A stretch of DNA of 64,000 bases from Cymbomonas tetramitiformis. Taxonomy: Eukaryota; Chlorophyta; Pyramimonadophyceae; Pyramimonadales; Pyramimonadaceae. The translations under genes and the position numbers were made by a program. The notes beneath the pieces were generated by a model. It did not search any database. It was given only the letters and a program-made list of their open reading frames with translations, and was not told the origin of the DNA. The stretch lies in the NCBI GenBank assembly GCA_001247695.2, contig LGRX02033391.1, forward strand, positions 1 to 64,000. The letters are read 5' to 3'. Of this stretch, positions 5,704 to 62,301 are shown one piece after another (the stretch's first letter is position 1; the number at the start of each line of letters is the position of its first letter).

Positions 5704-5722
5704 GGGTTGGGCAGAGGAGCTG

Positions 5723-41913: not shown

Positions 41914-43074
41914 TCAAAAATACCATATTGTCTGTTTGGAGGAGTATTGGGGCGTACCTCGCCAGTAGTCTTCACAGACCCATCTATCTGCCAGAGTTAC
42001 TTGCATTGGTGCACCTTTGCGAATGGTAAGGTTGCACCGTTTGGCACACTCCTCAGACACAAAGTTGTCGGAGGCGCCGGAGTCGACCAGCACCTTGATC
42101 ATGTGGCCACGCAGGTACGCATAGAACACTAACAATAAGGGTCCATCATCATCCCTTACCGCAGCCAGAGTACTGGCGAGACGGGAACGCGCCGCGTACC
42201 GCCACTTAATGGTCCCATCCTTTCGGATGTGCTTGCAGTGACGGTCCTCCGGCAAGGCGTGCGACTTCAATGCACATATGCTGGCAACGTGTTCCCCTTG
42301 CCCACCCGCGGCGTGGTCTGCCGCACTGACAGGGGTGTCTTCACCGTCGACATCGGTGTCGCTGACATGTATGGCACCACTGTCTATAGTGGCATCGCTG
42401 GTGGCATCACCGTCAGTGGCACTGACATGTGTGGTGCTGGCGTCAGCATCAGTGGCACTAATATGGGCAGAATCGCTGTCCCCAGCGCTGTCGCCGATGG
42501 CATCATCGTCAGTGGCGCTGATATGGGTGGTGCTGGTGGCGGCAGTGTCAGTGATACTCACGAGGATGGAGTCGCTGTCCCCGACGCTGTTGCTGGTGGC
42601 ATCACCGCCGTCAGTGACGCTGACATGGGTGGTGCTGGTGGCGGCAGTGTCAGTGGCACTTACATGGGTGGGGTCGCTGTCCCAGGCGCTGTCGCTGGTG
42701 GCATCACTGTCAGTAACGCTGACATGGGTGGTGCCGGTGGTGGCAATGTCAGTGGCGCTCACGTGGGTGGAATCGCTGTTCCCCGCGCTGTTGCTGGTCG
42801 CATCTCCGTCAGTGGCGTTAGGTCCAGTAACAAGGGTCTCCTCTGAGATGGGGCGTGCAGATTTTGGACTCCACCTAACTGCTCGAACTGCTGCAATGTT
42901 CAGCACATCGGTCATCTCCTCCGAGGTCAGGCATGTGGGAGATATCTGCCGCGACCCAGCCCGCGCCATGCGCTGCGTGAAGTTCAAACTGTCGTCTGAT
43001 GAGACGGGGAAGGACAGCGGGTGTTGCATGATAACTCTGCGCCGCCCTTCTGGGGTCCAGGTCTCCTCGATCAC
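41914..43074 (-). CDS. Retropepsin-like aspartic protease of a decayed retroelement
   Basis: A minus-strand frame of 386 codons. The first two thirds are a low-complexity Ser/Thr/Asp repeat of about 16-20 residues (variations on HVSATD..ATS). The C-terminal part has an aspartic protease active site, VLVDSGASDNFVS (about 42090), preceded by a hydrophobic strand (LLLVFYAYLRG) and followed by GAPMQVTLADRW. This is the family A2-type retropepsin fold of Ty3-like elements and related domesticated genes. No RT follows: sequence after about 41950 is unrelated and the last residues before the stop look random. The element is truncated here. Confidence 0.7.
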   Translation of the reverse strand: MIEETWTPEGRRRVIMQHPLSFPVSSDDSLNFTQRMARAGSRQISPTCLTSEEMTDVLNIAAVRAVRWSPKSARPISEETLVTGPNATDGDATSNSAGNSDSTHVSATDIATTGTTHVSVTDSDATSDSAWDSDPTHVSATDTAATSTTHVSVTDGGDATSNSVGDSDSILVSITDTAATSTTHISATDDDAIGDSAGDSDSAHISATDADASTTHVSATDGDATSDATIDSGAIHVSDTDVDGEDTPVSAADHAAGGQGEHVASICALKSHALPEDRHCKHIRKDGTIKWRYAARSRLASTLAAVRDDDGPLLLVFYAYLRGHMIKVLVDSGASDNFVSEECAKRCNLTIRKGAPMQVTLADRWVCEDYWRGTPQYSSKQTIWYF

Positions 43075-43730
43075 TCCCGCTGGTGCCTCCTGTCGTTGCT
43101 GCGACCGGCATCCCCCTGCTGGCTGATGCTGTCAATGAGGCCAATCCCTTGCGTCGGGCCATGCATCCCCTCAGTAACATCTGCGGGTGCCACCTGCCGC
43201 TGCTGCGACCGGGCGTGCGGATGCTGGCCGGGAGTGTCCGAGCATACCTCCGGTGCCGGCGCTAGAGGTGGCCGTGTATGGGAGGCCTCCACCGGAGCGT
43301 CACAGCAGCTTTCCTCACGGTGCTGATGACCCCCATATGCTTGGAGACAAAGTTCCTGCATTCTCCGGGACTCTGCCGCACGCACTGAGCGAGGTGGTCT
43401 CGAGCGTTTGCGCCCACTCCTCGACGGCCGGGAAGGGAGGCCACCGGACTGTCGGCGTCACTGGGCGGCGTGTCCCCCGGAGAGCATGATTCGGGGACAG
43501 TAGAGTGCACCTCCGCTGTTGCGTTGGCTTGCTCCGCCCGCTCGATAGCAGCCGCAGTCTCCGAATTCATGCCCTGTGATTCAGCCTGCTGTTGCGCACG
43601 ATACTGGCTGCACTGGATCTCCATCATTGGAGTGGGAGACATCTCCCCATCGGTCTCCATGGCATCTCCAGCACCAGCCTGCAAGGCGGAAAGGGTTCCA
43701 AAGTGGACCTTCCGCTGCCCTCGAAACATG
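43075..43730 (-). pseudogene. Degenerate frames between gag and protease
   Basis: Several short minus-strand frames overlap (43729-43262, 43385-43071, 43180-42875). Each is Gln/Ala/Arg-rich, without domains and with stops between. The order on the minus strand (gag, this region, protease) suggests the decayed middle of one retroelement polyprotein. Confidence 0.4.
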
Positions 43731-44363
43731 CTAGCTAGTCACTGCCCGCCAAGCCATAGCCCCGCGGCGACGTATCTGCCTAACCGGAGAGGAGTCCGAG
43801 GGTTCTAAGGGGTGAGTGACGAGGGCTGAGTCCTGCTGCTGCTGAGCCCGCCTACTGCGACAGAGGCGGTACTGCCTCTGGATCACCAATGCCACAGCCT
43901 TCCTGCGTTTTCTAAGGCGCCTGATCCCCATTGCCTGCCATGCCTGCGGATGCTGCTTCACTGCCCTCGGGCCATACTCGCTGCTGGCTGCATGCAGTTT
44001 CTCAGCCGGGGACAGCTCCCTCCATGCAGAGCACAACATTTGGGTCCGCGCGTCCCCGCTGTCATCCCCCTCCTGCATGCCCTCCTGCAGGCGGTCTCTA
44101 ATCATCGAGCTCAGCCCCGCTCTCCGCTGCCCATGCAAGGCAGGAGACGTTGCGGAACGCCGCGTGGCAAATCGCTGGTTTTGCTCGAGTAACTTACATG
44201 CTGCCTCGGGGGACTTCCGTAGCTGCTTCTTCAGTTTCTTCATCATGGCGACAGGCGATAGCAGCCCAGGTACCCGTCTCCATTTCCAGAATTCTAACTG
44301 CTGCCGCTGGTCCTCCGGGGAATCCTGGTACACATCTGACGACCCAGGCGCGGGCAGGAGCAA
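43731..44363 (-). CDS. Retroelement ORF fragment downstream of gag (split by transposon)
   Basis: A minus-strand frame open from the transposon boundary to 43731. It is rich in Arg, Lys and Gln (MMKKLKKQLRKSPEAACKL, ALVIQRQYRLCRSRR, the latter IQ-motif-like). If the transposon and one copy of its GCAA duplication are removed, the frame stays open across the join into 62191-62260. That supports these halves having been contiguous. No specific family recognised. Confidence 0.5.
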   Translation of the reverse strand: MLLPAPGSSDVYQDSPEDQRQQLEFWKWRRVPGLLSPVAMMKKLKKQLRKSPEAACKLLEQNQRFATRRSATSPALHGQRRAGLSSMIRDRLQEGMQEGDDSGDARTQMLCSAWRELSPAEKLHAASSEYGPRAVKQHPQAWQAMGIRRLRKRRKAVALVIQRQYRLCRSRRAQQQQDSALVTHPLEPSDSSPVRQIRRRGAMAWRAVTS

Positions 44364-44372
44364 AACGCCACA

Positions 44373-44960
44373 GAGCGGTCGCAAAAAGTTAAATGTCACA
44401 AGTATGGTCACATGCATAATGCAAATATTTCATGTTTTGACTTTCGCCGCACCTTGCCGCGACTATTCTAAGGTTCACCGCGCATTTGGTTTTTGGAAAA
44501 AATTTTCTGGAGCTCGCAATTGAGAAAAAACTGCTGTTTTGGGCATGTTTTGGTGGTTTTATAGTGCGGGGGGTATATTGCGGGATGAAATAAGCTAGTT
44601 TTGAAGTTCGCCGCACCTTGCCGCGACAATTCTAAGGTTCACCGCGTTTTTGGATCATAGAAAAAATCTTTTCCAAGCTTGTAATTGCGAAAAAAACGTT
44701 ATTTTGGCCCTTTTTCGCCCATTTTGAGTGCGCGTGAGTGTGTTGGGTGAGTTGGGCGATGTAATAAGGGAGTTTAGAAGTTCGCCGCACCTTGCCGCGA
44801 CAATTCTAAGATTCACCGCGTTTTTGGATTATGGAAAACATCTTTTTCCAGCTTGGAATTGCGAAAAAATCGTTATTTCGGCCCTTTTTCGCCCGTTTTG
44901 AGTGCGCGCAAGTGTGTGGGTTGACTTGGGGGAAGTAATATGCGAGTTTTGAAGTTATTT
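44373..44960 (+). repeat. Inner transposon left terminal region (modular inverted repeat)
   Basis: The 18-bp TIR is followed by three tandem modules of about 165-180 bp, starting near 44443, 44607 and 44781. Each opens with TTCGCCGCACCTTGCCGCGA, then an ACAATTCTAAGGTTCACCGCG-like word, and continues with AT-rich GGCCCTTTTTCGCCC-type sequence. They are inverted copies of modules in 52800-53401. Likely transposase-binding subterminal repeats. Confidence 0.85.
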
Positions 44961-45227
44961 AGCAGAGTGTTTTAAGTCTGTTTGTGAATATCTTGATTAT
45001 TACGTGCTGCAACAAGCTGTGCAATGCCAATCGAACTTAAAAATAAGGAATCATATGTGTAATAATGCAGCAATCTAGAAACCATATGTCTAATGCGTGC
45101 AACAGAAAGACGACGCAATGGAAAACAATGAAGGCAACTAAAAACATCAAAGTATAAGTAAACAGCAGTCAAAACAAAGCAAAGCATATTAATGGTGATA
45201 TATCTGCATTTTTAAATTTCGGTACTA

Positions 45228-45695
45228 CTAACGCCTCCACTGCCACTGGGCAAACTCCTCCAGACTCAGGTTGCGAGGTGCTGCGTGTCCCGGAGTCTGC
45301 CCATATCCCCCAAAAGCAGCACTTAACATCCTTGCTTGTTGCAATGACATCGTGACCTGGGGCTCTGCCTGCAGCTGAGGCGCTACCAAGGCCCCTGCAT
45401 GCATCGGCAGGCTGGGCATAAATTGCCCCGCGTTGCTGAAATGCCCCCCCGCCACGGCGTAGTTTCCAAGGAGCGGCACAGGCTCGAGGGGGGTGCTCGC
45501 AGCCGCGGGTGCGGAAGGAATGGCTGCGGGGGGCACTTCCACAGCAGTGCGCGCCTTCAGCTGACCCTCCAACTCCTTGATCTGTAGCTCCACCTGCAGA
45601 TCAGCTAGGCGTTGCATGAGTTGGGCGTTGGCTTGCGGTTGGTCTTGCTGCTGCTCCGGCCGATGAGGCTGCTGAGCTTGCTGCTCCTGCTGATG

Positions 45696-45740
<45 letters not shown>

Positions 45741-48700
45741 AAGAGGCTGCTGCTCCAGAGTCTGTTGCTGCAGAGGCTGATGCTGGTGCGGCGGTGGCAG
45801 CTGCTGTGGCTGCTGCTGTGGCTGCTGCTGCTGAGGCTGATGCTGCTGCGGAGGCGGCTGCTGCTGACGTTGCTGCTGCTGCGGAGGCGGCTGCTGCTCT
45901 GGCTGCTGCTGCTGCTCCACATAAATCTGGGAGGCAGGCTGCATTTCTTCATCTGACCACAAGTCCAGAGTTGCCAGTGTCGACAGTGCCTCATCTCCCA
46001 TATCGATGTTCGAGTTTGCTGCCGGCTCCAACGACTGCGCCCCTGGCTCTGTCCTAGCCGCAGCCACCGCCATGCTCGTTGTCCTCCCGCGCTTCCGAGA
46101 TCCCCTAGACCCCGGCGGGGGCTCAGAAATGGTCGTCCTTGGCCGCTTGGGAGGCTTCGTAGGATTTCCCTTCCCCGCTCCCTTTCCCTTGCTAGCAGCT
46201 CCCCCCGCCGCCGGCTGCGATGCTATCCGCGGGGGGCGTTTTGGTGGACATCTCGAAGCAGGCTTGAACACTGCCTTTGAGGCATTCTTGGCTACAGCCC
46301 CACCCGCTGCAACCTTACCAGCCTTCTTCGTGGGTGCTGCTCCCCCAGCTGCTGCCCCTCCAGCTGCTGTTCTCCCCGTAGCTCCCCCCCCCGTTCCTGC
46401 CGTGTTCTGAGCAATCGCTGGGAGGTCATCGTAGTGCACAGGGGTGAGTTCACCTTCATACATCCACGTGTCTTCTTTCCGCTTGTGATGGTTGAAGTGG
46501 CGGACGGGTCTCCATTTCCACCTTAAGACCAACTCCTTGAAGGACTCCACTGCCTCCAACAGCTTGACGTCAATGCTGCTCCTTGCCTCCACCTTCTCGG
46601 CTTGTAACAGCAGAGCAGCAGAAGCGTTGAGGTTGCTGTGGCGAAAACACACCGTCCTCCGGCCGCCGCCGCGTATCGAAGCCGAGAATGGCACCGCCGG
46701 ATTCTCCTCCAACAGCCAGGGGCCATACACACAGACGCCCAGTGCATTCTGGGCTGTCTTTCCCCTGGCCGGCGCGAAGGCAATCCAGAAAAGATCGAGG
46801 TGCTTCTGATGCACCACAACCCTCCCGAAAGCCATATCACCCCTCAGGGTGTTGCGCAGCTTCAGGCTGTCCTGCAACGTGTTCCCAAGCGCCAAACAGT
46901 CCTGTGCGTGCCAAGCTGTCACGAATTGCAACTCGGCTTTGAGAGCCCGCATCGCAAAGCTCGGAAGTGGACGTTGTGATGAGGGGAGGAGTTCCGTGGT
47001 GTCCACCGCAGAGAAGTCCTTGTCCGGACCATACTTCCGGAACACGGGGAACGTGGTGTTCTCTGGCAGGATCACGCCCTTCTTGTCCACGTAAAAATGC
47101 GCTGACCATCGAGGCACCCCGGAGTAGTCGAACTCCACCGCCGCGTGCACCAGCGCCCCCGAAAAGATCACAACGCTCTTCGCATCGAGGTGCAACGTGA
47201 GCGAAGTCAGGGTCTCCTTGTCAAGCATTTCCCTGGGCACCAAGTGGGATCCAGGGTATACCCGAAACTGATACTGGTCGGAGATGATCAGCATCACCCC
47301 AACCTCCCCCGCGTCGTAATGGTTGTCCTGACGAGCCGCACCACCGTGTGTCATCAGCAACGTGCGCCCCATCTTCCCCGACCGCATCACCAACTCCACC
47401 TCAGTCCCAGAGGTAAGTGTGGATATGACGTCCGCCCCAACCCCCTCCAACCGCTTCATGAACCCCGTGCCATCCTCCACGTCCACGATACACCTCTTGC
47501 TATCTGGAACGGACGTGGTGTGCACCCCATCAGTTTTGAACGACATGAAATTCTGCCGGACGTTCTTCACGAGGTACCCCTCGTGAAATTGTTTCGCGAG
47601 GACTTCGACAGGCGAAGGGTCCTCCAGCCTGCACACGCAATAGCCGTCCTCCTCAAACTGCTTGCGCCAGTTAGAAGGCCACACCAGCCCAACCTTCTCC
47701 ACTGCTTCTGGCTGCCCCTGCTCCTGCGCCTCCCCAGTCTGCACCCCCGGCTGCTGCTGCTGGGATCCACCCGCGGATTCGCCAGCAGACCCCTGCCCCG
47801 CCTGCTTCTCCTGCTGCCCCTCCCCAGCCTGCTCCGCCGCCGCCTCCTTCTCCGCTGCCGGCTGCTGCTGCTGGGATCCACCCGCGGATTCGCCAGCAGA
47901 CCCCTGCCCCGCCTGCTTCTCCTGCTGCCCCTCCCCAGCCTGCTCCGCCGCCGCCTCCTTCTCCGCTGCCGGCTGCTGCTGCTGGGATCCACCCGCAGAC
48001 TCGCCAGCAGACCCCTGCCCCGCCTGCTTCTCCTGCTGCCCCTCCCCAGCCTGCTCCGCCGCCCGCCTCCTTCTCCGCTGCCGGCTGCTGCTGCTGGGAT
48101 CCACCCGCAGACTCGCCAGCAGACCCCTGCCCCGCCTGCTTCTCATGCTGCCCCTCCCCAGCCTGCTCCGCCGCCGCCTCCTTCTTCGCTGCCGGCTGCT
48201 GCTGCTGGGATCCACCCGCAGACTCGCCAGCAGACCCCTGCCCCGCCTGCTTCTCCTGCTGCCCCTCCCCAGCCTGCACCGCCGCCCCCTGTTGCTCCTC
48301 CGATACCACAGGGGCTTCACCAGAAGACTCCTCAAGCGCGGGGAAGTCTAGGGGCTGTATCGACATGGGGCCGGGCTGGAGGCCCAATGCAGCCGGCCAT
48401 CGCAGGGGAAGGCCTGCTCTGCCACTTTTACCGCAAAAATTGCGACCGCATGTGGTCGCGTCCTCAACCTCACCAGGCCTGCATATCCCATGGAAGGAGC
48501 GATGGCAGGCAGTGCAGCCGTGCCCTGGAGCACGATCGTCGTCCTTGCCCAACCCGCAAAATAGACACCAGTCCTGGGCGTATTTCCCGCAACGCCCGCA
48601 CTCTCCAGGGTAGGAGTCCCCAGCAGCGCAAACCCCATGGTAGTGCCCATCGCACATCGAACATGGCTGTGGTAGCACCCCCACTCGAGCAGCTTCGCCG

Positions 48701-48825
48701 TGTGGGCAGTTGGGCACCACGCAGAACTTGCGCGTTGGAAAAAGATCTTTTTTCATTAGTCGTTTTTTTGGTTCTTCTGTCCCGCTGAAGGCTTCTGACA
48801 TCGCAAGCCCCCGCTTTCCTGCCAT
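45228..48825 (-). CDS. PHD-finger + 2-oxoglutarate/Fe(II) dioxygenase-like protein (one-base frameshift)
   Basis: About 1198 residues if one extra base is ignored. Start chosen at ATG 48825 (MAGKRGLAMSEAF). Residues about 33-130 form two cysteine/histidine zinc modules of PHD type (CSMCDGHYHGVC; CTACHRSFHGIC). Five or more copies of a 37-residue E/Q/A-rich repeat (111 bp) follow at about 47749-48300. One copy (47971-48082) is 112 bp, with an extra C at 48062-48064, which shifts the frame. Then comes a jelly-roll dioxygenase: iron ligands HxD in DNHYDAGEVG (about 47320) and the distal His in GALVHAAVEF (about 47145), with Arg in GVPRWSAHFYV for 2-oxoglutarate. Next are an unrecognised domain, a basic Lys/Gly/Pro stretch and a poly-Gln (CTG)n tail. 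TET/JBP-type dioxygenases are known cargo of some fungal transposons; DNA or protein as substrate here is inference. Confidence 0.72.
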
Positions 48826-49519
48826 GTCTTCCCGATCTAAAACAAAAGTACCCAAAGTACTTCTTTTAGCTCGTCCAGGTGCTCTTGGCCAATAAATATA
48901 CTGCTCGCGCAAGGCAGGCACGCGAAGCCGTCGTGATGGTCTGTTATTTCCCACAACTCACAATCTTCACCAAAGGAGATGTATACTTTTGCTTCGCGTG
49001 TGCAATAATCACAAGGCTGCCTGGCAGGCATTTTGGGAGGTGATGTTTTTTAGTGTCGTGCATGTTTTCAATCACATGCCTTTCACCGCACGTAGGATCA
49101 ACACCCCACTGTGACTGGGACGATCGTGCGTGCGGTGAAGTGGTTCCTCAGTAACGACAGAATCTGGGATATAAGTCGATGGGCATTTCACCGCACGCAG
49201 GATCAAAACACCACTGTGACTGGGACGATCGTGCGTGCGATGAAGTGGTTCCTCAATAAGGACAGAATCTGGTAAAAAGTCGATGGACATTTCACCGCAC
49301 GCACGATCGAAACACCACTGTGACTGGGACGATCGTGCGTGCGGTAAAGTGGGTGCTCGCAAGAAAACATTTTAGCAACATGCTATGCACCCATATTTTT
49401 AAACTTAAACGCGTTGTTGCTTTAATAATTCACAAGTCGATAGTTGTATATTGTGCCGTTATGCCAGGTTAATAGCATGGGATTCACCGCTTGTGAGCGG
49501 TATATATCGTGCGAGAAAT
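48826..49519. promoter_or_regulatory. Divergent intergenic region with 104-bp repeats (inner transposon)
   Basis: Lies between the two divergent genes. Units at about 49081, 49187 and 49291 repeat at about 104 bp. Each begins TTCACCGCACG and carries the reverse complement CGTGCGGTGAA about 50 bp later, enclosing CACTGTGACTGGGACGATCG. A TATATAT word lies at 49500-49507, right before the transposase ATG. Probable shared promoter or transposase-binding region. Confidence 0.6.
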
Positions 49520-52500
49520 ATGGCTTCTCTGGGGTTCCTTGTGGATATGCTGCCATGGCTACACGACCTGAGTGCAGCAGCGCGCGATTTTCCGTTGAGT
49601 TTGCCAGTTGCTGTAGGGAACCAGGATCGAGGAACAAACCTAGTCCGAGAAATAGGCGAGTTTGTTGCTCATTGGAACCACCTCGCTCCTTCAAAAGATG
49701 TTACGCCAGTAGCGACTGCTGTCGCGAATGCGGGCACGCCATCTTCACCTGCTGTCCAGCGGCGTGCAGACGCTACGCCAGTCACCACAGATGGCGCACC
49801 TGCGCTCACCTCATCATCCCCTCCTGTCCAACAGCGCGTTGATGGTACCCCAGTTACCACAGGTGGCGCGCATGCGACCACACCTTCTTCCACTGCTATT
49901 AAACGGCGTAAAAATGCAAAGAAAAGGAAAAGTGACGAAAGAGGGAGAAAGCGTTTGAGGGAGGAAAATGCTGAAGCGCCACGGTCAGAAGGAACCCAAC
50001 CCGAAGCTAGCAATGCAGAAGATTCTGGAGGAGTGCCGCGGGGAAGCAAAACGTACTGGAACACGAAGTTGGCGACAGTTTTTTCAAAGGCCTCCAAGCT
50101 CATTCCAGGCGCGCTTGGGAACTATGTCGCTTCCTTGTCGTCGGAGGAGCAATGCGCGGTACGCGAAAAGATTTTGCGCAGGCCAGAGGACCGCGTTGGG
50201 AACATACTGGTCAGGAGCTTACGAGCGTCATTTCAGGCTGTCTCCACCAGCAGATGCAAAGAGATTCTCGACATTCGGATGGCAGGTGCAGCTATGGCGT
50301 TTGGGGGACCCGAGGAGAGCGTGGGCGAGATCGCCTCGGTTTTAGGCATACGATCACCTGTTGTGAATACAGGGATGATTGGACACAGTAACTTGCTTGC
50401 TGGAGCTGGCTTCGGGATGGAACATAGGCGACGAAGCGGGCTACTGGTTGGCTTGGTGAGGACCAACATTAATCTGCCTAACCAGGTAGTGAGCGCGGAG
50501 ATCGAGAAGAAAATCCGGGCTTTCTGGCTCAGTGATGGGATCACTCGAGTGTCCACGAGCAAACGGGATGTTCTTACGCTCCGGCATGCAGATGGGACAG
50601 TGGAGAAGGCTCCGAAGCAGTGGTTAGAAATGACGCAGCTTGAGGTGTATCGCAAGCTCATGAAGAAGGAACCTGGTTTGAAGATTGGGCTTAGGACGTT
50701 CGAGCAAAAGAAACCAAAGCAAGTCCGAAGACTCACTCGACATGACACAATTTCTTGTTGCTGCAGATACCATGAGGAGATGCGGCTGGCGGTTACTGGG
50801 TATCACAGGGCACACGAAGTACTGCAATCGAATTGTGATTGCGGGGACAGGGTTTGCTGCCCACTGGTGGGGGGGCAGCGGGCCGTGATGTCCAACCGCA
50901 AACCTACTCTTGCGTTTCCGGACAAAGTATGCGGACGTGTTGAGGTGGGTTGCTCTACGTCCAGTTTTACAGCTGCCCAGATTTGTCCGAAGCCAACTCT
51001 GGATAACGGGGAGCCGGCTGAGTTCCACGATCTCGCCTGTCTAGATGGTTCGTGTGGGAACTGTTCGGGGCTGCAGAACATGACTTTGTGTGCCTCGGAG
51101 ATTTCGCAGCAGCTGCCTTTGGTGGAGTGGAGCACGTATGAAAATGCGTTGCTTGGGCAGGACGCAAACGGGAAGAATAAGTATCGGGTGCAGTATGTTC
51201 AAAAAAGGACCCCTGTGGGGGAGCTAGTGGCAAAGCTGCAGGCCGTGCTCCTTGGGCACGTTCCAGGGGACTCCGCGAACTGCACGTGCTCTGGCAGTTT
51301 TGCGCAGAAGACGGAGCAGGGAAGCTGGGAGTTGATGCAATTAGACGGCGTGGGGGGACGGGCGTGTCCTTTTTTGAAGCCATATGCCTACCACTGCTTC
51401 ATGGCTCAGCACTCAATGAAGATGTTTAACATGTGCAAAGCTAACTTGCCCTTGGGACATGTTTGCCTTCTTTTTGACTACAGCGAGAACCATTCGCTGA
51501 ACATCCCACGGGCTATCCAGTCGTTGCATTGGGTATGTAAACAAGCGACACTTCTGTGTTGTGTGCTATGGCGGCATGCAACTCTGGAGGTGGACGGCGT
51601 GGAGTCCACGGAGGCGAACCCTGTCATTGTGAAGGACCTCATCTACCTCATCAGCGACGACATGCCACATAGTCACCGAGGAATTCAACATATGCGCAAG
51701 CTTATCGTGAGTGAGTATTTCGTGAAGAGAGGTATCCCGCTGCCAATATTCATCCACGAGTGGGCTGATGGATGCGGGGGTCAAAACAAGTGCGCAACTG
51801 CCTTTGCGGACGTGGTGGAGAGCGGACGGACAACGGAGTGGGTCAGAGGGCTCGGCATCCCGTGCCAGCGCAACTTTTTTGAAACATCGCACGCACGAGG
51901 CGAGCAAGACGCTATGGGAGTGGCAGTCAAGCATGAGGCGAGCCTGGCGGTGATGTCCACCACTGATAAGTGGCATGGGAGGATTCTAACCGCGAGAGAC
52001 TTGTACGAGTTCTGCATGGAGAGGCTTCAATTCGCCAAGGACCAAGGCTCTAATCGGCGTTCCGCGTTTGGACAGCGTTTCTTTTTCCTGGTGGAAGGAG
52101 ACGACGTGGATACCTCGGGGCCTGAGTTCGACACGGTGGACGGCACTTTGGCGTTGCACTCCATCCGTGCGGGAGTGGGGTTGTTGGTGGGCCTGAAGCG
52201 GGAGCGCCAATGCTACTGCGAGTATTGCTATGAGCAATGCACGCGCGCGGAGCCGGATTGTGAAGGGTGCCACTACGCGAGCCACGTGGACAGTTGGGTG
52301 CCCTTCACCCTGAAGGCCAAAACACAAGCGCAAGCCCGGCAAACACGAATGGCGGCTGCAGAACTAGCACACGACACGGGCGTGCTAGTTGCGCGAGGTA
52401 ATATTTTTGCCCGGCCTTCTAGGGGGGATGAGTTGCACCCCTACTATTTGGTGAAGGCACTTAGTGGAGTGCAAGAGGTGCGGGACGAGGGCGGGTGGCG

Positions 52501-52756
52501 AGATGACTACTACACACCAAGCGGGAGTGGTGTGCTTGCTGCTTTTGGAGATCAAGTACTCGAAGGCCGTTTCTTGGAATGGCTTGATGAAGGAACGTGC
52601 ACCGAATACTACATAGATAGCGCAAAGAAGTGTTTGACATATTCTCACCATGTAGTGTGCGCGGAGGTGTCCGTGACCAAACGCAGAATTAAGGGCCAAG
52701 ACATCTTCCGCGTATCAGATGAGGAGCACGAGCGTATCCTATCATTATTATATTAG
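49520..52756 (+). CDS. DDE/RNase H-fold transposase-like protein (inner transposon)
   Basis: 1078 residues from ATG 49520 (MASLGFLVDMLPWLHDL). Residues about 60-130 are a Thr/Pro/Ala repeat of about 28 residues (TPVTTDGAPALTSS, TPVTTGGAHATTPS), followed by a basic nuclear-localisation-like stretch (KRRKNAKKRKSDERGRKR). A cysteine-rich middle part (CCCRYHEEMRLAV, CDCGDRVCC, CLDGSCGNC) probably binds zinc. The catalytic-looking core has Asp in LLFDYSENHSL (about residue 652), Asp in HEWADGCGGQNKC (about 748) and the FFETSHARGEQDAMG block (about 790). The DxxEN / DG..GQxK / SH.[KR]G..D.[MI]G signature recurs in many uncharacterised transposon-like proteins of animals and algae. A CxxC-rich segment (CYCEYCYEQCTRAEPDCEGC) follows. 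The ORF is intact, ends at TAG, and is probably the autonomous transposase. Confidence 0.75.
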   Translation: MASLGFLVDMLPWLHDLSAAARDFPLSLPVAVGNQDRGTNLVREIGEFVAHWNHLAPSKDVTPVATAVANAGTPSSPAVQRRADATPVTTDGAPALTSSSPPVQQRVDGTPVTTGGAHATTPSSTAIKRRKNAKKRKSDERGRKRLREENAEAPRSEGTQPEASNAEDSGGVPRGSKTYWNTKLATVFSKASKLIPGALGNYVASLSSEEQCAVREKILRRPEDRVGNILVRSLRASFQAVSTSRCKEILDIRMAGAAMAFGGPEESVGEIASVLGIRSPVVNTGMIGHSNLLAGAGFGMEHRRRSGLLVGLVRTNINLPNQVVSAEIEKKIRAFWLSDGITRVSTSKRDVLTLRHADGTVEKAPKQWLEMTQLEVYRKLMKKEPGLKIGLRTFEQKKPKQVRRLTRHDTISCCCRYHEEMRLAVTGYHRAHEVLQSNCDCGDRVCCPLVGGQRAVMSNRKPTLAFPDKVCGRVEVGCSTSSFTAAQICPKPTLDNGEPAEFHDLACLDGSCGNCSGLQNMTLCASEISQQLPLVEWSTYENALLGQDANGKNKYRVQYVQKRTPVGELVAKLQAVLLGHVPGDSANCTCSGSFAQKTEQGSWELMQLDGVGGRACPFLKPYAYHCFMAQHSMKMFNMCKANLPLGHVCLLFDYSENHSLNIPRAIQSLHWVCKQATLLCCVLWRHATLEVDGVESTEANPVIVKDLIYLISDDMPHSHRGIQHMRKLIVSEYFVKRGIPLPIFIHEWADGCGGQNKCATAFADVVESGRTTEWVRGLGIPCQRNFFETSHARGEQDAMGVAVKHEASLAVMSTTDKWHGRILTARDLYEFCMERLQFAKDQGSNRRSAFGQRFFFLVEGDDVDTSGPEFDTVDGTLALHSIRAGVGLLVGLKRERQCYCEYCYEQCTRAEPDCEGCHYASHVDSWVPFTLKAKTQAQARQTRMAAAELAHDTGVLVARGNIFARPSRGDELHPYYLVKALSGVQEVRDEGGWRDDYYTPSGSGVLAAFGDQVLEGRFLEWLDEGTCTEYYIDSAKKCLTYSHHVVCAEVSVTKRRIKGQDIFRVSDEEHERILSLLY

Positions 52757-53401
52757 AATTTGGACCGCCTTGTTTTATTGATAGTTTGTGCAAATGAAAT
52801 GACATGAAATAATGCGGGCTTTAAAATTCATGTTTTGCAACCCACTTATCACCCCACGGGCGCGTACGCACCAAAACCCTAAATAAACAGTTCTGAAACA
52901 GTCATTTTAACCCATTTCAACCTGAAAATTCTAATTTGCCAAAATTCAAATGCGCGGTGAAGCTTAGAATTGTCGCGGCAAGGTGCGGCGAACTTCTAAA
53001 CTCCCTTATTACATCGCCCAACTCACCCAACACACTCACGCGCACTCAAAATGGGCGAAAAAGGGCCAAAATAACGATTTTTTCGCAATTACAAGCTTGG
53101 AAAAGATTTTTTCTATGATCCAAAAACGCGGTGAACCTTAGAATTGTCGCGGCAAGGTGCGGCGAACTTCAAAACTAGCTTATTTCATCCCGCAATATAC
53201 CCCCCGCACTATAAAACCACCAAAACAGGCCCAAAACAGCAGTTTTTTCTCAATTGCGAGCTCCAGAATTTTTTTTTTCAAAAACCAAATGCGCGGTGAA
53301 CCTTAGAATAGTTGCGGCAAGGTGCGGCGAAAGTTTTTGAAACAAAAATCATTATTTATCTTCCATTATGCATTTGCCGCACGAACTTTTTGCGACCGCT
53401 C
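52757..53401 (-). repeat. Inner transposon right terminal region (modular inverted repeat)
   Basis: Short 3' non-coding sequence, then inverted copies of the left modules, with GCGGCAAGGTGCGGCGAA at about 52975, 53148 and 53313. The region ends with the TIR AACTTTTTGCGACCGCTC. TTAGAATTGTCGCGGCAAGG is shared by the copies. Confidence 0.85.
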
Positions 53402-53405
53402 CACA

Positions 53406-53938
53406 ATCCTGAAAATGATAGTTCGCACACTCTCATTTCACTATCATTTTTGAAGATATTCGCAATGGGGTATATTTTGGGTGTTTAAGGTACATTTATT
53501 GGTGCTAATACACGGACGATCTTTGATTTTTTGAAATTTTTGGCTTAAAGCAGTTTTTGGGCGATATTTGTGCTCCGCGCGTGGCGCGGAGGACCCATAA
53601 ATAGCAAACAATTGGAATATAAAGCAAATGATGTATACGAAGGGTGTTCAAAGTACGTTTTTGGTTGGTAAATACAGGCTGTTTTGTCCGAATGCTAAAA
53701 AACTTTGTACACAGCAATTTTGGGGTCATTTTGTTGCCGCGCAGGAGTCATGCTTGATAGGGTTTAGGGTTCCCAAGTCAATCTAAGCAAATTTGAGCCA
53801 GTAATGCGTTGGATATAAGAGACAAGCTGAAAACGGTTGTCTATATCCTCGTTTGTATGTCCAGCTATCCTGGGGCCGTATGCCTGCTGAACACATATTC
53901 GTCATGTTAACACAATATTACTTCATTACCAGGGTTCA
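53406..53938. other. Outer transposon left subterminal region
   Basis: Starts with the inner part of the outer TIR (AATCCTGAAAATGATAGT, to 53422), then CACTCTCATTTCACTATCAT. That word recurs in the same orientation near the right end (62135). The rest is AT-rich non-coding sequence with weak repeats of a TGTTCAAAGTACGTTTTTGG type. No gene seen. Confidence 0.6.
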
Positions 53939-56900
53939 TCAATAGAGGTTGCGTCGATAGTACCATGCATACACGTCGTACAACCAACGGCTTACTGCAA
54001 TCCGTGGGTGGGGGTACACATCATTGTACCACCAGAACATGGTGAATATTCTAGTGGACCGTGGCAAATGAAGATACGTAAAGCCCCAAGCAGATGCTGC
54101 CCCCATGTGATATGCCAAGGTCACGGGCAACCGGACCTCCTCATAAAGACGCCGTGCGAAATTGTACCGGTACACCGGAACAAGTGTTTCTAACGCCCTG
54201 AGCATCCTTTCTTCCACCCAGTCCCGCACGAAGCAGCTCTCCCTCCACCTTCGAAGATCTCCTGTCCACTGCAGAACGATCCGCAAGGCAGCACCGGCTA
54301 GCTCCTCCGCCTGCAAAAACAAACCAATAAGTTTCAGTCACGTATCGACAAAAAAAACAGCAATTTTCGGTCACGAAAGTATCGAAATAAAGTTTGCATA
54401 ACAACTAAAAAGTGCAGATACTAAAGTTTCTTATATACACTATACATATGTACAAACTATATAACATTGTAATTTGTTTTTTCTAGTAGCTAAGACGTCA
54501 TCGAAGTTCTGAACTAAAGCCTTTGCGTATATCGTCTCCTTGCTGGCTGGTTGTGCACCATCGGTGGCCGCGGCCAGCCCTCGGTATTTAGCCAAAGCCG
54601 ACATTGCAGGAGCGTTTTTTGTCCTGTCCTGCGAGCCCATGTCCTCAACGATTTGCAAGGCCTCTTCGGCGGACTGATTGTACTCCTGAATGTCAAGGAA
54701 CGGTTCTCCAACTGGCGTTGTCGGGATTGGGGCGGAGTCCCCAACGGTACTCGGCCCCGAGCTGTGTTCCAAGAGCTGACCGGTGCGCTGCGTGAGTAGT
54801 CCCTGTTGAAAGCAAGCAGCCATGTGCAAAGTTATCATTCGCTCCGTCCTGCAGCTGGGTGCAAACCAAACAAATTGCGGACATTGACATCTTGGAGTGC
54901 GCCGTACCTGAATAAGCTGCATGCTCAGGTTTCGAACGTACGTGAGCTCCTCCGAATGGCCTTTGCGGAACATCTCGAACTGCTCGCGAAACGCGTCTTT
55001 CAGCGCGTTCATGGTATCAATCTGCTGGGCCTGGAAGCCGCCCTGAAGAGCGACGACGTGGCTGTGATTTTTATCGTTCATCTCGGAAAGTTGAGTCCGG
55101 TTCGCATCAGCTTGCGCGAAATAATCCTGCGCCAGTTGCGCCTGAACTCCCAACATCTTCTCCTCCCGAACAAGATGTTCTTGAATACGCTCTTTGGCCT
55201 CGGCCTTCTCCTGTCGAATTCTTTCTTCGTGCTGAGCTGCCAACTGGGCCTTCTCCTCCGCAAAACGTTGTGCCTGCTCCTGCAATTGGGTTGTGAGATT
55301 CGCCGAAGCGGCTTGCAAGCGCTTCACTTCCTCCTGCAGCGCTGGGCTGGTATCGTACCGCGCCTGCTTCTGGATGTCCTCCGCCGTCTGCCTCGTCAGT
55401 GCCGCAAGCCACGCCTTATTTGGACCGCCACTGGTTTTCATCTCCTCCTGCAAAGCCTGTTTCCTCTCCTTCCGCTTGTCTCCAGCCTTCGTAGAAGTAA
55501 CCACCACAGGCTCTTCCTCAAAGTCTTGAGTGTCTGCAGAGTTGCTGTCGGATACGTGCGGTCCTGCTGCTGTGATGCGTGCTGTGACCTTTGGCTTCGC
55601 GTCGACCACTGCGCCTCTTCGCAGGCGGCGGCTTCGCCTCAACGGTCTTGTCTTGGTTTTCGTTAGGAGGTGGAAATTCCGCGAAGCTCCACTTTTGCTT
55701 GGCTACCTCCGGAAATTTCGAGTATTCCACCACGATAACTCCGACCCCCCGGAGGTTAACCCCTGTCGCCATGTTCGAGTATGCCAACCGCCATCGTGCC
55801 GCAGTCCCGTTCTTCTTAGTAGTCTGCTTCGCCTCTTCTTGCTTAAGCTTGATAAGCAGCTTAGATGACGCCCACTTGTAAACCTCGTGAAGGTCGTGCT
55901 CCTCCTTCTTCTCGTTCTTAGAAAGAAGGAATGCGTCTTGTTCATCACCACCGACGACCTCCTGAATTGTGCGAAGCCGTACAGGCCACCCCTCGCTCTT
56001 CTTCTTATTCAGGCGAAGTGGGGGATACCCCTGGCAGTAACGCTCCACGCGCTGAATGGAAACAGCTCGATTATTGAGCGCAGGCATCTGAAAGTAAAAG
56101 AAGTATTGTCGTTGTCCTCTCTGGGCATTGCCTGGCTCCTCCCTCTGCGCACAAAGGGTGACATGCCACTGCCCACCCTTTGTCTGCGTCAGGGCAAAAA
56201 AACGCAAAATGGTGTCCTTGTCTAGCAGCATGGCGTACTGCCTGAGCGCGGTCTTGAACTTCACCTCCACCCGCATGCCTCGCACGATGGTGAAGTGAAA
56301 CGTGGACCCCGCGACGATGACGTGATACTGGAAAGCAATATACACCTGCAAAACCACAAAGCGTAAATCCACAACCCGCCAGCTTCAGTGTCAAGGTTAT
56401 GAATAAAGTCCGTTCACATGTATATTCCTTGAACAAAATACTCTATGGTATACAAACAATCCGATTAGAGCGAATGAGGACGGCACTCACCGCCTGAAGC
56501 TCATCGTTTATCGTATACTCGGGCACGTTCGACTGCACCGACTTGATGATAGACGACTGGCTCGCGGACTTCTCTGCCGACATTTTCTCTTTAGGGAAAT
56601 ACGTCATGTGCTCCGCCGCGTCGTCGTAGTCGGCTCTGAAAAAGTAGGTGTCCTCCAGCTTTCGAGTGTCTTGATTTCGTCCGATGGTGACAATCTTCAC
56701 GTCAATCACGTCCCCGCAGTCCGCAACCGTCGCCGCCAGTGCTTCAGCATAGGAGCCATACGTATCCATGCCCCCGTCATATGCGCGAGGGTCCTTGATT
56801 CTGGGGTTCAGGACTATTATCCTCCCCCCATTAGCATCATTGGCCGTCAACGTCCGAACAACACTGCTTGCCATGGATAAAAACACCAGTGCTGGCATCT

Positions 56901-57696
56901 TCCGCTTGTTCACATGCTTGAGCTCCACCAAGAATCCAGGACGCATGTCAGGATCCGAACCGTCCCAATCACCAAAGTCGGCGTTGTGCACGGCCTGAAC
57001 TTTTAAACTCAAATCGGTGCCACCATCGTCCACGCCGCAGTTAGAACTGAGAAGGTACTCGCATAGCATTTCCTTCGTGAACGGACTAAACAAATGTGTG
57101 TCGTCCGTGATGTCCAGGAGGTAGCGGTTCTTATCGCGAAGCCCGCCCTCTGTCATCATCAGACCCAGCTGCACGGGTTCCCATGCGGGGTCGATGTTTT
57201 TTACAGATGTGGGAAACACGACCTCGCGCACCTTTGTATCGCACGATCCGGGGTCTGCCGCTCGCAGGGCGTCAGCTAGGAACTCGCTTGGCTCAATGTC
57301 GTTGTCAGCGGCGACCCCGCCAATGCCCAAAGCTTGAGCATCCTCGATAGCCGCAGTTTCCTCCAGAGATTCTTCCCGTTCTCCAGTGTTGCACACCACA
57401 AGATTGGGCGTGAGGACATCTGGCTGACTAGCGTCTTCTGTCAACCTTTGGATTGCAACTGGCCCGAGAAACTGGAGGTCAAGGAGTTTCTCTTTGCTGG
57501 CGTCGGAAAGTTGTTTGAAGATAGTTTCCAGTTGTTCGCAGTCTTGATGAACTTCGCACTTCCTATCTCGCATCCAGGAGATATCATCCAAAGTCTCCTT
57601 GTCACTTTCTTGAAGTTCTATTACTATCTGCTGTATCGCCTCCCTGTCGCTGCCCCAATCAAATACTTCCGGGGTATTCTGTTGCGTTTCCGACAT
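53939..57696 (-). CDS. Multi-exon accessory protein of the outer transposon (unrecognised, coiled coil)
   Basis: Starts at ATG 57696 (MSETQQNTPEVFDWG). Exon 1, 57696-56491, is 402 codons of acidic mixed alpha/beta protein (VELKHVNKRKMPALVFLSMA, VKIVTIGRNQD). Intron 56490-56346 has GTGAGT and TTTTGCAG. Exon 2 runs from 56345 (VYIAFQYHVIVAGSTFHF) to 54908. Its frame shifts by one base around 55600-55640, joining a basic region (PPPAKRRSGRREAKG) to a long coiled coil (QEEMKTSGG ... LQAASANLTTQLQEQAQ). A possible intron, 54907-54803 (GTACGG...CAACAG), has a length divisible by 3 and no stop, so it may be retained. Exon 3 runs from 54802. The last exon, 54310-53939, follows a TTTTTGCAG acceptor and is aromatic and basic (FARRLYEEVRLPVTLAYHM); the donor before it is unresolved. 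About 1100 residues in all. It may be a DNA-binding or transposase-partner protein. Confidence 0.6.
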
Positions 57697-57749
57697 TTTT
57701 AAAAAGAACTAATTTCTTAACAAGAGAATATGTTTCTGAGACGTTTTGG

Positions 57750-58093
57750 CGCTAACGTGAAATTACCTGAAATAATTTGTTATATTGCTTTTGGCGCTTG
57801 GGTCTTAGTTTTTGGCTCTGCGATGGAGCTTTTGGCGCTTGGGTCTTAGTTTTTGGCTCTGCGATCGAGCTTTTGGCGCTTGGGTCTTAGTTTTTGAGCG
57901 CGATCGCTTGGTCTTAGTTTTTGGCGCTGCGATCACGGAATACCGTCGATTCAGAATCGTACATTCAGAATCGACGGCAGATCGAGCCAAAAACTAAGAC
58001 CCAAGCGCCAACAGCTCGATCGCAGAGCCAAAAACTAAGACCCAAGCGCCAAAAGCAATATGACAAATTATTTCAGGTAGTTTCACGTTAGCG
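57750..58093. promoter_or_regulatory. 344-bp palindrome between divergent genes (outer transposon)
   Basis: The left arm 57750-57824 and right arm 58019-58093 are 75-nt inverted copies with two differences that I could see. Between them a 41-bp unit (GCTTTTGGCGCTTGGGTCTT...) is tandemly repeated, and the centre is itself palindromic (CCGTCGATTC ... GAATCGACGG). Both flanking genes start close outside it (ATG 57696 and ATG 58098), and each protein begins Met-Ser-Glu. A symmetrical bidirectional promoter, a transposase-binding site or a replication structure are all possible. Confidence 0.75.
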
Positions 58094-58097
58094 TGCT

Positions 58098-61000
58098 ATG
58101 TCTGAGAATAGGAGGGCTTCCAGGAGTGTTGTTCTCGAAAATCATGCCGGGACAATCGGTCAGTTTTGCGAGGAATCGTATACTTGCGGTTGTTTGGCGC
58201 AATGCTCAAAGCTTTTTCAGTACCATTCATATGCCAACAACATCCAACACAAGAAACAGTTAACCCAAAAGGAATTCAAGTCTCTCATGATGAAAACCTT
58301 GGAAGCCGCGGTTGTACGGGACGTGAAAACGGGTGCGCGCCTGATACCGGATGGGGTACCTTTCAAGTTTAACGAGAAGCTCGTATGTCCAACCAGCTTT
58401 CGGAATCTTTGGGGCCTAACACCAGCTTCTTATTTTCGCTACAAAAACGATGTTTTGCAAGCGGGTGGAGTCTTCCCGGATACGAAAGTTTTTCGGGAAC
58501 CGAAGAAAACGAAGCTTTTGAAGGTGACTGCTTGCTACGAAGCTTTTAAAGATTGGGCGATGTTGCACTTCTTGAAAGGCCTTCCGCAGGATATGCCGGC
58601 AAGCGGTGCAAAACCGATTACTGCACCTGACTATGACGTCTTGTTTAAGTCGTACGTGGAGAGATGCCCCCTGCCGGTCCAAGTTGTACAAGGCGTTTTC
58701 CGCGACTTTTGCACTCGTTTGTTAGGCGAGGAAAAGGTGATTGTGCGGAAGAAGATTGAAGTCACCAGCATGTGCACGACGTGCGACGACCTCGGCGCCC
58801 AAAAGCACCGCCTGCAGTACGCGGATCCGAATCCCATAGAATATCGGGCGTACCTAGAGCGCAAACAGTATCACGAGACCACCCATAAGTTCCAGCGCGA
58901 TGAGTACGATAAGCGTAGGCGGGACGGGAGTGATCCCGGCGGAGAATGTGACTCAATAGCACTGGATGGGGCGGCCAACCAGAACACGGTGGTGCCGCAT
59001 GCGCCACACAAGGTGAAGAGCCTGAATGAGAAGAAGCAGCACTTTTTCAATCTCCACCTGCAACTCACCATTCTGCATGGTACACGCTTGCTTTTCCATG
59101 TGGCGTACCCGTGGAGCGCCCCCAAGGGTGCGAACATGATGCTCACCACGCTGTGTAACCTGCTGCAACTACAATGTCAGCCCACTGAGAACAACCGGTA
59201 CTTGCGGCGTACACTATGCCTGCAAGTGGATGGGGGATCGGAGAATTGGAACCGTCATGTCTTCGGGTTCATGGCCCTGTTGGTGCACTACGACATCTAC
59301 GAGAAAATAGAGCTGCATCGCTTGATGGTAGGCCATACGCACAACGACGTCGACGGTTGGTTCGGGCTTATGAAGATGCAGGTCTTCGGGAAAGATGCAA
59401 CCAAAGCCGGAAAGTGGCTTATCACCTTGGAAGAGTACATCGACTGGATCAACGGCTGGACCATTAAAAGGTTCGACAAGGATGTTTACGTGCAGGGTTC
59501 ACAGCTGGACTTCAAAGCGTGGATGCACGACCATGTAAACTGGTCTCTTACTGGATATGCGGGCCTCGAACGAGCTGTGCACTTTCTGCACTTTGAGAAA
59601 GACGTCGACTCGGTTGTGCGGATGAAGTACAAAAACGGTGTTCATATGAAGACGTTCATGCCAACGGGGGTGGACAATGATTCGAGAAAGGGTTTGATCG
59701 CCATGAAGAGTTATCCGGAGCTAACCAGCTCTCCAGAGTTAGCACCGGTGAAACCTTTGGAGGACGAGAAAGACACTCTAGCCGCCTTCGAACGCATTCG
59801 TGACCGCGCGGACTATCGCATCACTCACGAGCAGCAAGAAACGCTGTTGAAGTACTTCCCGTTACCCAAGAGTAATGCGGACTACGAGACATGGAACGGA
59901 CCTCGACCGGACGTGCAGGCGCCGTTGGACCTGCAGCTGATGCAAAACAGGGCGTGGCATAAAGCCCCGGTAGAAACTCACCCGTACGTGGGACCGGTAC
60001 AGGAGCGGCAGGTGGAAACCATTGCAGATGGCATCAACGTGCGGGTCAAGGACCTTCCGATTCAGGTCGACGTCATTTTGGCTAAGTGTATACACAAGGC
60101 AAACTTCGCGAAGGACATTTCATTTTGGTGAGTGGGTAGTTGTGTGCTTCGTTTATTGTTTTTCCAGGTATTTATTATCGTGCCTTCACGTCTAAGTTTT
60201 AAAGTACACTTTGCAGGTATAACACGCGGGAAGTGAAAGCCGTGTTGGTACACTTGGGCCTTCCGGTTGACGGTTATGCTCTCGACTTGGCTACTCGTTT
60301 GTTCAATCATACGAACGAGGAACGTCAAGCCGCACGGAGGCCCTCTGAAGTGAGGGCACGTGAGCCGCGTGGAGATGCAGCAGGAAGCGGCGAAGTTGCA
60401 GGGCGTGGTGCATCGACCAAAGGTTCTGGGCGCGGGCGCGCAGGAAGCGGCGAAGTTGCAGGGCGTGGTGCATCTGGCAAAGGTTCTGGGCGCGGGCGTT
60501 CAGCAAAAGGTGGAGTTGCAGCGCAGGCTCCGGGCCAAGGTTCTGTGCGCGGGGGGTCAGCTCCAGCTGCCAATAATGGAACGCGCAGGAATGGGGATAC
60601 CACGGAGTTGCCCTTCAGCTCCAAGGGAGGCGGACAGAAAGGAGGCGGTCGAACAGCGTCTTCAAAGCGTTTGCGACCTACTTCCCAAACAAGCTCGCCA
60701 GTGGAGAAGCCTGCTCCGAAGACTCGACGAGAGCAAGCAGCTATGAGCAAACGGACTCGAGATCCTCAGTCCGGAAGCTCGCCGATCGTATCCCCACCGC
60801 AGGCCAAACAACGTGGCCCGAGTAAAGGGTCCGGGTCGCAGCGGCGTTTATTTTCAGGAAAACGTGTTCAACTCACCCCGGCAACAAGCCCGGGAGCCGA
60901 TCCAGGCACACAGTCGCCGCAGGCGCACGAGCTTAATTCCCTTGCGAAGGAAGTGGAGAAAGGCGTCGCCGCCGACAATTCAGAGGACACGGACTCCGAC

Positions 61001-61537
61001 GCGGACTTGCCTTTGGTACTCCGTCGGGCAAAATACCAGCCTCAACCTCAAGATTCCGACTCCGCATCGGAAGACGACACCCCCCTGGCATGCCGCTTTT
61101 TGCCAACGGACTATACGTTCGAAATGCTTGATCCTGGGTGCTTCGCGGTTACCGCAGCAGGGGAGGCGGATGCAGCTGACCAGTGCTCATTCACGTTCAA
61201 GATATCACAGAGACAGCGTTCACCGCCACTCCACTTTGTTGAGGTTTTGGAGGTCGACAAAGCCAAGAAGCTTGTGCATTGGCAGTTTTGGCTACCTTGT
61301 GCCCATCATCTTATCAGCAACTCAAAGCGTACCAGCCGTACATACAAGAGCGTGGATATCCTGTTTCAGGCAGACGCTTTTCGGCGTGGAAACTCCAAGC
61401 TTCGAGCATGGCACCCCTTCGATGCAGACGAAGTTGTTACTTGTTGGGATGCAGGCGCAAAGGCACCCACAGGCGCCATCCCGATCGGAGATGAGAAGAC
61501 CGAGCTTTTGAAGGTGGCTACTGACAATGCTGAGTAG
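58098..61537 (+). CDS. Transposase-like protein with SAP domain (outer transposon), two exons
   Basis: Exon 1 58098-60127; intron 60128-60216 (GTGAGT...TTTGCAG, 89 nt); exon 2 60217-61537. Together they encode 1116 residues. The N-terminal half has a CTTCDDLG zinc-like group, then an RNase H-fold core: Asp in IALDGAANQN, Asp/Glu in LQVDGGSENWNR (about residue 375) and VGHTHNDVDGWFG (about 413). The LD/VD..ENxN and GHTHxDxD blocks match the DUF7869 type of transposon protein found in fungi, oomycetes and algae (recognised from memory of motifs, not searched). The intron sits right before a SAP domain (EVKAVLVHLGLPVDGY, about 680-712), a DNA-binding helix pair that only splicing creates. A Gly/Arg/Ser-rich tract with a near-perfect 60-bp duplication (about 60370-60490) and an unrecognised C-terminal domain (FHFTFKI-like, about 61180-61480) follow. 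Ends at TAG. Confidence 0.72.
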
Positions 61538-62190: not shown

Positions 62191-62301
62191 GCAAGTCTCT
62201 GTAGTCTATGGCCCGAGGTGGGGGCCCAGTCACCACAGTATGATTCTGGTGTGCTCGGCGCCATCCTCGTGCAGGCAGTGGCTGTGACTTCGGGGCCATT
62301 G

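Follow-up and report, generated by a model that had tools for sequence, protein, structure and literature searches.

A large DNA transposon family of the green alga Cymbomonas tetramitiformis pairs its transposase with a predicted PhyH-like oxygenase bearing PHD-like fingers

In the marine prasinophyte green alga Cymbomonas tetramitiformis, the first 64,000 nucleotides of contig LGRX02033391.1 (assembly GCA_001247695.2), referred to here as the window, contain a DNA transposon of 9,029 bp at positions 44373-53401, bounded by exact 18-bp terminal inverted repeats (TIRs) and a CACA duplication. With a probability of about 0.5, this element belongs to a large Cymbomonas family of cut-and-paste transposons, in which a DDE/D-type transposase is accompanied by a divergently transcribed accessory PhyH-like Fe(II)/2-oxoglutarate (2OG) oxygenase with PHD-like fingers that would provide resistance to silencing. 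The accessory protein is most likely a transposon-encoded eraser of chromatin or DNA marks, which would differ in enzyme family from those of the fungal TET+ transposons. The data directly support the boundaries, the 4-bp duplication, the repeated copies, the recurring gene pair and the retention of the residues that should bind metal and 2OG.

The two TIRs are complementary at 18/18 positions. Searched with up to three mismatches, their motif occurs at two sites in the window, and none of 100 shuffles gave two. The element ends in GAGCGG...CCGCTC, with CACA on both sides. It is nested in a second transposon (44364-62190), whose left TIR it splits. When its flanks are joined and one CACA is dropped, the result is AACGCCACAATCCTGAAAATGATAGT, identical at 25 of 26 positions to the right end of the second transposon in inverted orientation. 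Excision thus restores the TIR of the surrounding transposon, an independent proof that the unit is real. In the 851.7-Mb genome that was searched, where the window is contig C23306, a second full copy lies at another site (C25322:34537-43543) with 98.98% identity over 9,034 alignment columns. It is flanked by CTAT on both sides, and the first base of its left TIR is changed. Two other copies, on C17475 and C17749, share 99.76% identity along 4,567 bases starting exactly at the TIR, in unrelated flanks; those of the C17475 copy (GCTG and TGGT) form no duplication, a finding at odds with a strict 4-bp rule in this one case. The exact 18-bp TIRs and the CACA duplication had been proposed in a first-pass annotation of this DNA and are borne out by complementarity, flanks, nesting and the second copy. 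Its two genes, a transposase and a finger/dioxygenase gene with an HxD...H motif and a glutamine-rich (Q-rich) tail, are likewise present. The features of the element, including its open reading frames (ORFs), are as follows.

44369-44372, no strand: left CACA copy of the 4-bp target duplication (from the flanks and the restored TIR of the surrounding transposon)
44373-44390, plus strand: left 18-bp TIR, GAGCGGTCGCAAAAAGTT (complementarity, shuffles)
44434-44956, plus strand: left subterminal arm (repeats 164-174 nt apart)
45228-48347, minus strand: ORF with the dioxygenase domain, a second conserved domain and a Q-rich/coiled-coil-like tail (ORF list, alignment)
46431-47054, minus strand: second conserved domain, C-terminal to the oxygenase (alignment)
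47055-47708, minus strand: predicted double-stranded beta-helix oxygenase domain, with H130 (47319-47321), D132 (47313-47315), distal H188 (47145-47147) and R200 (47109-47111)
47729-48285, minus strand: array of 111-nt (37-aa) repeats, one spacing of 112 nt, where the frame is offset (repeat spacing)
48310-48825, minus strand: N-terminal part, its start codon at 48825, holding a pair of PHD-like zinc-finger modules of C4HC3 type (ORF list, ligand pattern)
49078-49376, no strand: palindrome-containing direct repeats, three in number and 104-105 nt apart, in the spacer from which the two genes diverge (self-comparison)
49520-52756, plus strand: transposase (1,078 aa) in which FDYSENH, HEWADG and HARGEQD hold the candidate acidic residues (ORF list, alignment)
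52905-53334, minus strand: right subterminal arm, whose complementarity with the left arm is 93% across 384 nt
53384-53401, minus strand: right 18-bp TIR (complementarity, shuffles)
53402-53405, no strand: right CACA copy (from the flanks and the restored TIR of the surrounding transposon)

The family is abundant in a genome whose published assembly comprises 68% interspersed repeats, according to an excerpt of PMC10675990. Among 1,026 first-look candidates, the dioxygenase domain was scored at no fewer than 98 places on 97 contigs, and 93 of the 98 matched stretches are free of stop codons. For the transposase, at least 50 of 2,497 first-look candidates were scored, 49 of the 50 without stops. 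A scored dioxygenase lies within 10 kb of 18 of these 50 transposases, always head-to-head (18/18) and with 2.3-4.7 kb between the matched stretches. Seven of the other 32 were looked at and 25 left out. The three with 6 kb of flank all carry fingers and dioxygenase, with disrupted frames; C19238 and C17749 have fingers, beyond which their contigs run out, and the remaining two have less than 1.2 kb of flank. The gene pair is common to at least four diverged subfamilies, and the independent capture put forward in the first-pass annotation understates this extent. Protein searches had returned a single dioxygenase relative, CYMTET_40683, a result in line with the chance capture, in a single copy, of a passenger gene or of a metabolic gene of the host. 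It had also suggested at first that most copies are devoid of the dioxygenase, a view overturned by the whole-genome search. Such a chance capture is very improbable, being contradicted by the head-to-head order of all 18 pairs in several subfamilies and by the minimum of 98 domain copies.

The transposase is recognized by the blocks FD(F/Y)SENH, HEWxDGxxxQNK and ETxHxxGEQD, whose acidic residues are kept in 90-100% of 15 transposase sequences. Such conserved blocks are as expected of a DDE/D transposase, and the residues proposed as catalytic are candidates. No function-relevant match above cut-off was found by hmmscan of the 15 sequences against Pfam, and the KDZ profile gave none at E<=10; an MRP-S34 match (E 0.014) was set aside as chance. 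In the predicted model, the core lies largely below a pLDDT of 50, and Foldseek with this low-confidence model gave no match at E<=0.001. The protein has 14 relatives, of which seven are CYMTET proteins and the others come from unnamed or metagenome sources; like CYMTET_40683, these seven tie the window to Cymbomonas tetramitiformis. A protein from an 8,541-base ENA contig (P0002) is 98% identical to the transposase, which may mean that another sampling also caught the element or its host. Neither transposase nor dioxygenase relatives were found in viral contigs, no relatives were found in prokaryote genome contigs, and the only match among phage records was judged meaningless.

The 4-bp duplications (CACA, CTAT) and the missing KDZ match in 15 sequences show, in line with the first-pass impression of a core unlike KDZ, that the transposase is not of KDZ type. 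KDZ elements make 7-8-bp target duplications, and IS3EU elements, from which the present one departs in both respects, make 6-bp duplications and end in TAYGG...CCRTA, as described in the excerpts of PMC12730594. Sola elements have target duplications of 4 bp (Sola2, excerpt of PMC3627910), a likeness in duplication length, and the element is not filed there; the Sola2 duplications are AT-rich, unlike those seen here.

To characterize the oxygenase, 23 of the 98 scored domains, 42-98% identical to that of the window, were aligned. The histidine and aspartate of HxD and the PGSH motif are kept in 23/23 domains, the distal histidine and the arginine 12 residues on in 22/23; the exception, C17997, is frame-disturbed there. 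The order and spacing HxD...PGSH...H...R resemble those of PhyH (PF05721), in which we take the order to be HxD, PGSH, distal histidine and downstream arginine. A stricter PhyH-like pattern, chosen post hoc, turned up in 18 of 200,000 domain shuffles, and a six-frame scan of the window gave a single occurrence. In a Pfam search of the 23 domains (E<=10, HMMER filters on), PhyH matched two of them below its gathering score (best E 0.076), in a register that fits the motif, and the PDB chain 8zyb_E was matched at E 0.03 by an alignment covering PGSH...VHC. The PhyH match was kept despite its weak E-value because of this register and this alignment. Taken together, the sub-threshold signals (E 0.03-0.08) point weakly to a PhyH type. 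The Cymbomonas protein is distinguished from PhyH by lying below the family cut-off, by its fusion to fingers and by its location on a transposon; we know of no chromatin role of the PhyH family.

The TET/JBP identity suggested in the first-pass annotation was not supported, as Tet_JBP matched 0/23 domains in the same Pfam search and the slight signal points to PhyH. The HxD motif and distal histidine of TET/JBP are present here too (23/23 and 22/23), but they are general to 2OG oxygenases and thus not specific to that family. JmjC and AlkB matched none of the 23 domains (Pfam, PDB), so that the profile comparison with TET/JBP, AlkB and PhyH proposed earlier was negative for the first two and sub-threshold for the third. 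A single-sequence search of the PDB gave nothing sensible, PHROGs and NCBIfam gave no match, and matches to dUTPase (E 0.009), Rubella_E2, DUF3297 and Fn3-like were set aside as chance. A PF12851 search of the genome was without match, the controls likewise. A true TET/JBP-type 5-methylcytosine dioxygenase, diverged past profile detection, is improbable given the PGSH motif, presumably PhyH-like, and the contrast between no Tet_JBP match and weak PhyH matches in 2/23 domains. It gains from the fact that such enzymes are carried by fungal transposons of 11 lineages, the PE type being recognizable only by structure comparison (PMC12730594, excerpts).

The second gene (minus strand, 48825-45228) is divergent from the transposase gene and encodes both zinc fingers and dioxygenase. 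From the N-terminus, its protein consists of two Cys/His modules, a variable low-complexity linker, the oxygenase domain and the second conserved domain, followed by a tail rich in Q or A. The fusion is uninterrupted in relatives, as a single ORF of 1,502 aa in C17475 and of 1,268 aa in C9843, and is therefore real. Both modules show the C4HC3 ligand pattern that we take to be that of PHD fingers, and these ligands are kept in 4/4 subfamilies, represented by one sequence each. The window fingers gave no PHD-type Pfam match, and those of relatives gave C1_1 (E 1.3-3), PHD_P300 (E 2.3) and zf-HC5HC2H_2 (E 9.4), all below cut-off. By pattern search, the coiled-coil-like RLADLxxxLxI and the VTMSLQQ end are present in the window and C17475 and absent from C9843; C4620 has RLADLKLQLEI in another ORF. 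The second conserved domain (46431-47054) displays FGRVVxHxK, VYGPW and HH motifs, aligns in 23/23 sequences and has no credible family match.

It is also conceivable, if rather unlikely, that the oxygenase acts on histones or another chromatin protein instead of DNA, guided by the PHD-like fingers. The C4HC3 modules conserved in all four subfamilies and a signal that is PhyH-like rather than TET-like would fit this, whereas no PHD family match reaches threshold and the fingers could bind DNA or RNA. A JmjC demethylase is disfavoured by the arginine at +12, compared with what we take to be the JmjC arrangement, and by the absence of a JmjC match.

Besides the gene pair, the element includes inverted subterminal arms of about 480 bp with repeats at 164-174 nt spacing on both sides. 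The observed/expected CpG ratio is about 1.4 in the arms (1.39 for 44373-44960), against 0.87 for the window. The intergenic spacer contains tandem repeats with a period of 105-115 nt in all four subfamilies examined (window, C17475, C9843 and C4620), with inverted self-matches in the first three. This similarity of the spacer repeats across four subfamilies suggests a shared two-way promoter.

For the preferred reading of a transposon-encoded eraser, the following sequence of events may be proposed. The fingers would dock a nuclear oxygenase on chromatin. After binding its metal, the oxygenase could remove or oxidize a repressive methyl mark on the DNA or histones of the element. The promoter repeats and the arms, the latter presumably bound by the transposase, would then stay open, so that the transposon could escape silencing and transposition might benefit.

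A number of observations weigh against this reading. In the window, fingers and dioxygenase are encoded in different frames, by the ORFs 47671-48957 and 45228-48347, respectively. One of the four unit spacings in the repeat array between them is 112 nt, the rest being 111. In the C25322 copy the second gene is likewise split, with an array altered in many places, so the split could reflect either a misassembly of the repeats or genuine decay. The joining of fingers to dioxygenase between 45228 and 48825, described in the first-pass annotation, is thus confirmed by the single ORFs of C17475 and C9843 and interrupted in the window itself. As to the copies, only three of 13 fetched arm-bearing contigs (C25322, C17475 and C9) show a dioxygenase match. 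Fingers without such a match were found on C17749, where the contig ends, and on C2634, which lacks a dioxygenase along the 2.5 kb that remain of the contig. Transposase pieces only are present on C6961 and C23377, the transposase of the latter being truncated with no fingers in the remaining 2 kb. Six of the 13 (C10291, C25066, C21495, C18737, C24586 and C7065) matched neither gene, some of the stretches being short. When these degenerate contigs are set against the 18 pairs and the 3/3 additional copies, the dioxygenase accompanies transposases of full length; gene-poor derivatives, which most transposon families have, occur here too. Copies without dioxygenase, which the earlier annotation had regarded as speaking against it, are thus absent among full-length transposases with enough flank and occur among degenerate copies.

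The assignment of the domains meets further objections. No profile search gave a significant match to an oxygenase or PHD family. Chance alone often yields the loose 2OG motif (in 4,768 of 20,000 shuffles), and unrelated families appear at E-values similar to those of PhyH, namely DUF3297 in five members (best 0.16) and Fn3-like in four (best 0.15). The AlphaFold model of the dioxygenase, built from two sequences, has a pLDDT of 28.9 and was not used.

Selection was estimated from the ratio of nonsynonymous to synonymous divergence (dN/dS). Between subfamilies it amounts to 0.28-0.45 (five pairs) with a saturated dS of 1.3-1.7, and in the 44-45% group to 0.2-0.49 (three pairs). The recently multiplied 45-46% group shows values of 1.2-9.5 (six pairs, few changes), and near-identical copies exceed 1 in 8 of the 11 computed pairs, again with few changes. 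The dioxygenase domains of the window and C25322 are set apart by 12 nonsynonymous and 3 synonymous changes, their transposases by 6 and 4; C17475 and C15682 differ by 5 and 1. Low ratios between subfamilies and high ones among recent copies indicate that the enzyme has long been maintained and that recent copies, that of the window among them, show relaxation or something odder. Most differences among the near-identical copies of the 45-46% dioxygenase group (C15962, C11209, C24076, C18618 and others) are nonsynonymous; relative to the shared C15962, the nonsynonymous to synonymous counts are 15.5 to 0.5, 18 to 1 and 26.5 to 2.5, above the neutral-drift expectation.

The nonsynonymous excess among recent copies and the coiled-coil-like, Q-rich tail would suit a second protein acting mainly as a DNA-binding transposition cofactor, with an oxygenase fold that is structural and catalysis that is dispensable; two-protein transposons are common. 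This is improbable as well, since the expected metal and 2OG residues are kept in 22-23 of the 23 domains down to 42% identity, which is unexpected of a dead enzyme. Concerning the methyl mark that a transposon-encoded eraser would remove, the CpG ratio of 0.87 shows the window to be little depleted. Between the window and C25322, 18 of the 48 transitions with readable context fall at CpG sites, which is no more than a slight excess and does not prove methylation.

Oxygenase genes beside a transposase are already known from fungi. In the excerpts of PMC12730594, TET+ DNA transposons include Kyakuja, Dileera, Zisupton, Plavaka, IS3EU, hAT7, PHISTA, EnSpm, ESTA and Helitron, and their anti-silencing role is proposed without experimental validation. 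The Cymbomonas element is similar in its predicted Fe(II)/2OG oxygenase gene adjacent to the transposase and in the role proposed. It differs in its green algal host, PhyH-like motifs without a TET/JBP match, fused PHD-like fingers, non-KDZ transposase and 4-bp duplication. On these excerpts, what is known are fungal transposons with TET/JBP-type oxygenases, and what is new are the green alga and what is probably another oxygenase family. Further anti-silencing or chromatin cargo, as cited in the same excerpts, comprises the Vandal MuDR proteins of plants and SET methyltransferases in oomycete HarbingerS/MuDR elements. These also have a second protein acting, or proposed to act, on epigenetic silencing, the proteins belonging to other families and having another chemistry. 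The excerpt of PMC8226300 cites Iyer 2014 for a KDZ element in Chlamydomonas. Among the top-ranked entries of large result sets in the open-licence PubMed Central literature, no dioxygenase-carrying transposon of green algae was found, and an earlier mention in Iyer 2014 is possible. It may tentatively be asked, with more doubt than confidence, whether transposon-borne epigenetic erasure was invented a second time and independently here. An abundant green-algal family would then have a PHD-finger/PhyH-like oxygenase unrelated to TET/JBP as the standing partner of its transposase, removing a DNA or histone mark by a chemistry undescribed for this fold.

Some observations concern other repeats. 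Four arm-bearing copies (C21495, C18737, C24586 and C7065), whose fetched stretches matched neither gene, have the TIR GAGCTGTCGC and an identical 12-bp flank, ATGAATTGAAAA, in 4/4 cases, so that they may be one larger repeat and not four insertions. An exact TIR match in L001, which is otherwise without similarity to the window, was put down to chance. The surrounding second transposon (44364-62190) has the TIR AACGCC(A/T)CAATCCTGAAAATGATAGT and a 4-bp duplication, GCAA, on its flanks (44360-44363 and 62191-62194). It encodes a DUF7869 protein at 58092-60131 (Pfam E 9.7e-24) along with four other long ORFs, and a 110-nt inverted repeat pair (57750-58093, 96%, 124 nt apart) stands between its divergent ORFs. 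Elsewhere in the window, an ORF at 41914-43131 (minus strand) with a retroviral-type aspartyl protease signal just under cut-off (gag-asp_proteas, E 4.5e-6) is probably a retroelement remnant. Long ORFs at 1252-6736 and 25407-32021 (plus strand) resemble retrotransposon proteins by eye.

If the reading of a transposon-encoded eraser is true, counter-silencing oxygenases would have arisen more than once, here in a green-plant lineage, from another oxygenase family, with fused chromatin-reader-like fingers and in a head-to-head arrangement that recurs. The Cymbomonas family would offer numerous naturally occurring versions of an enzyme whose possible target is a mark on DNA or histones, and the question of whether transposons erase their own silencing would become directly testable.

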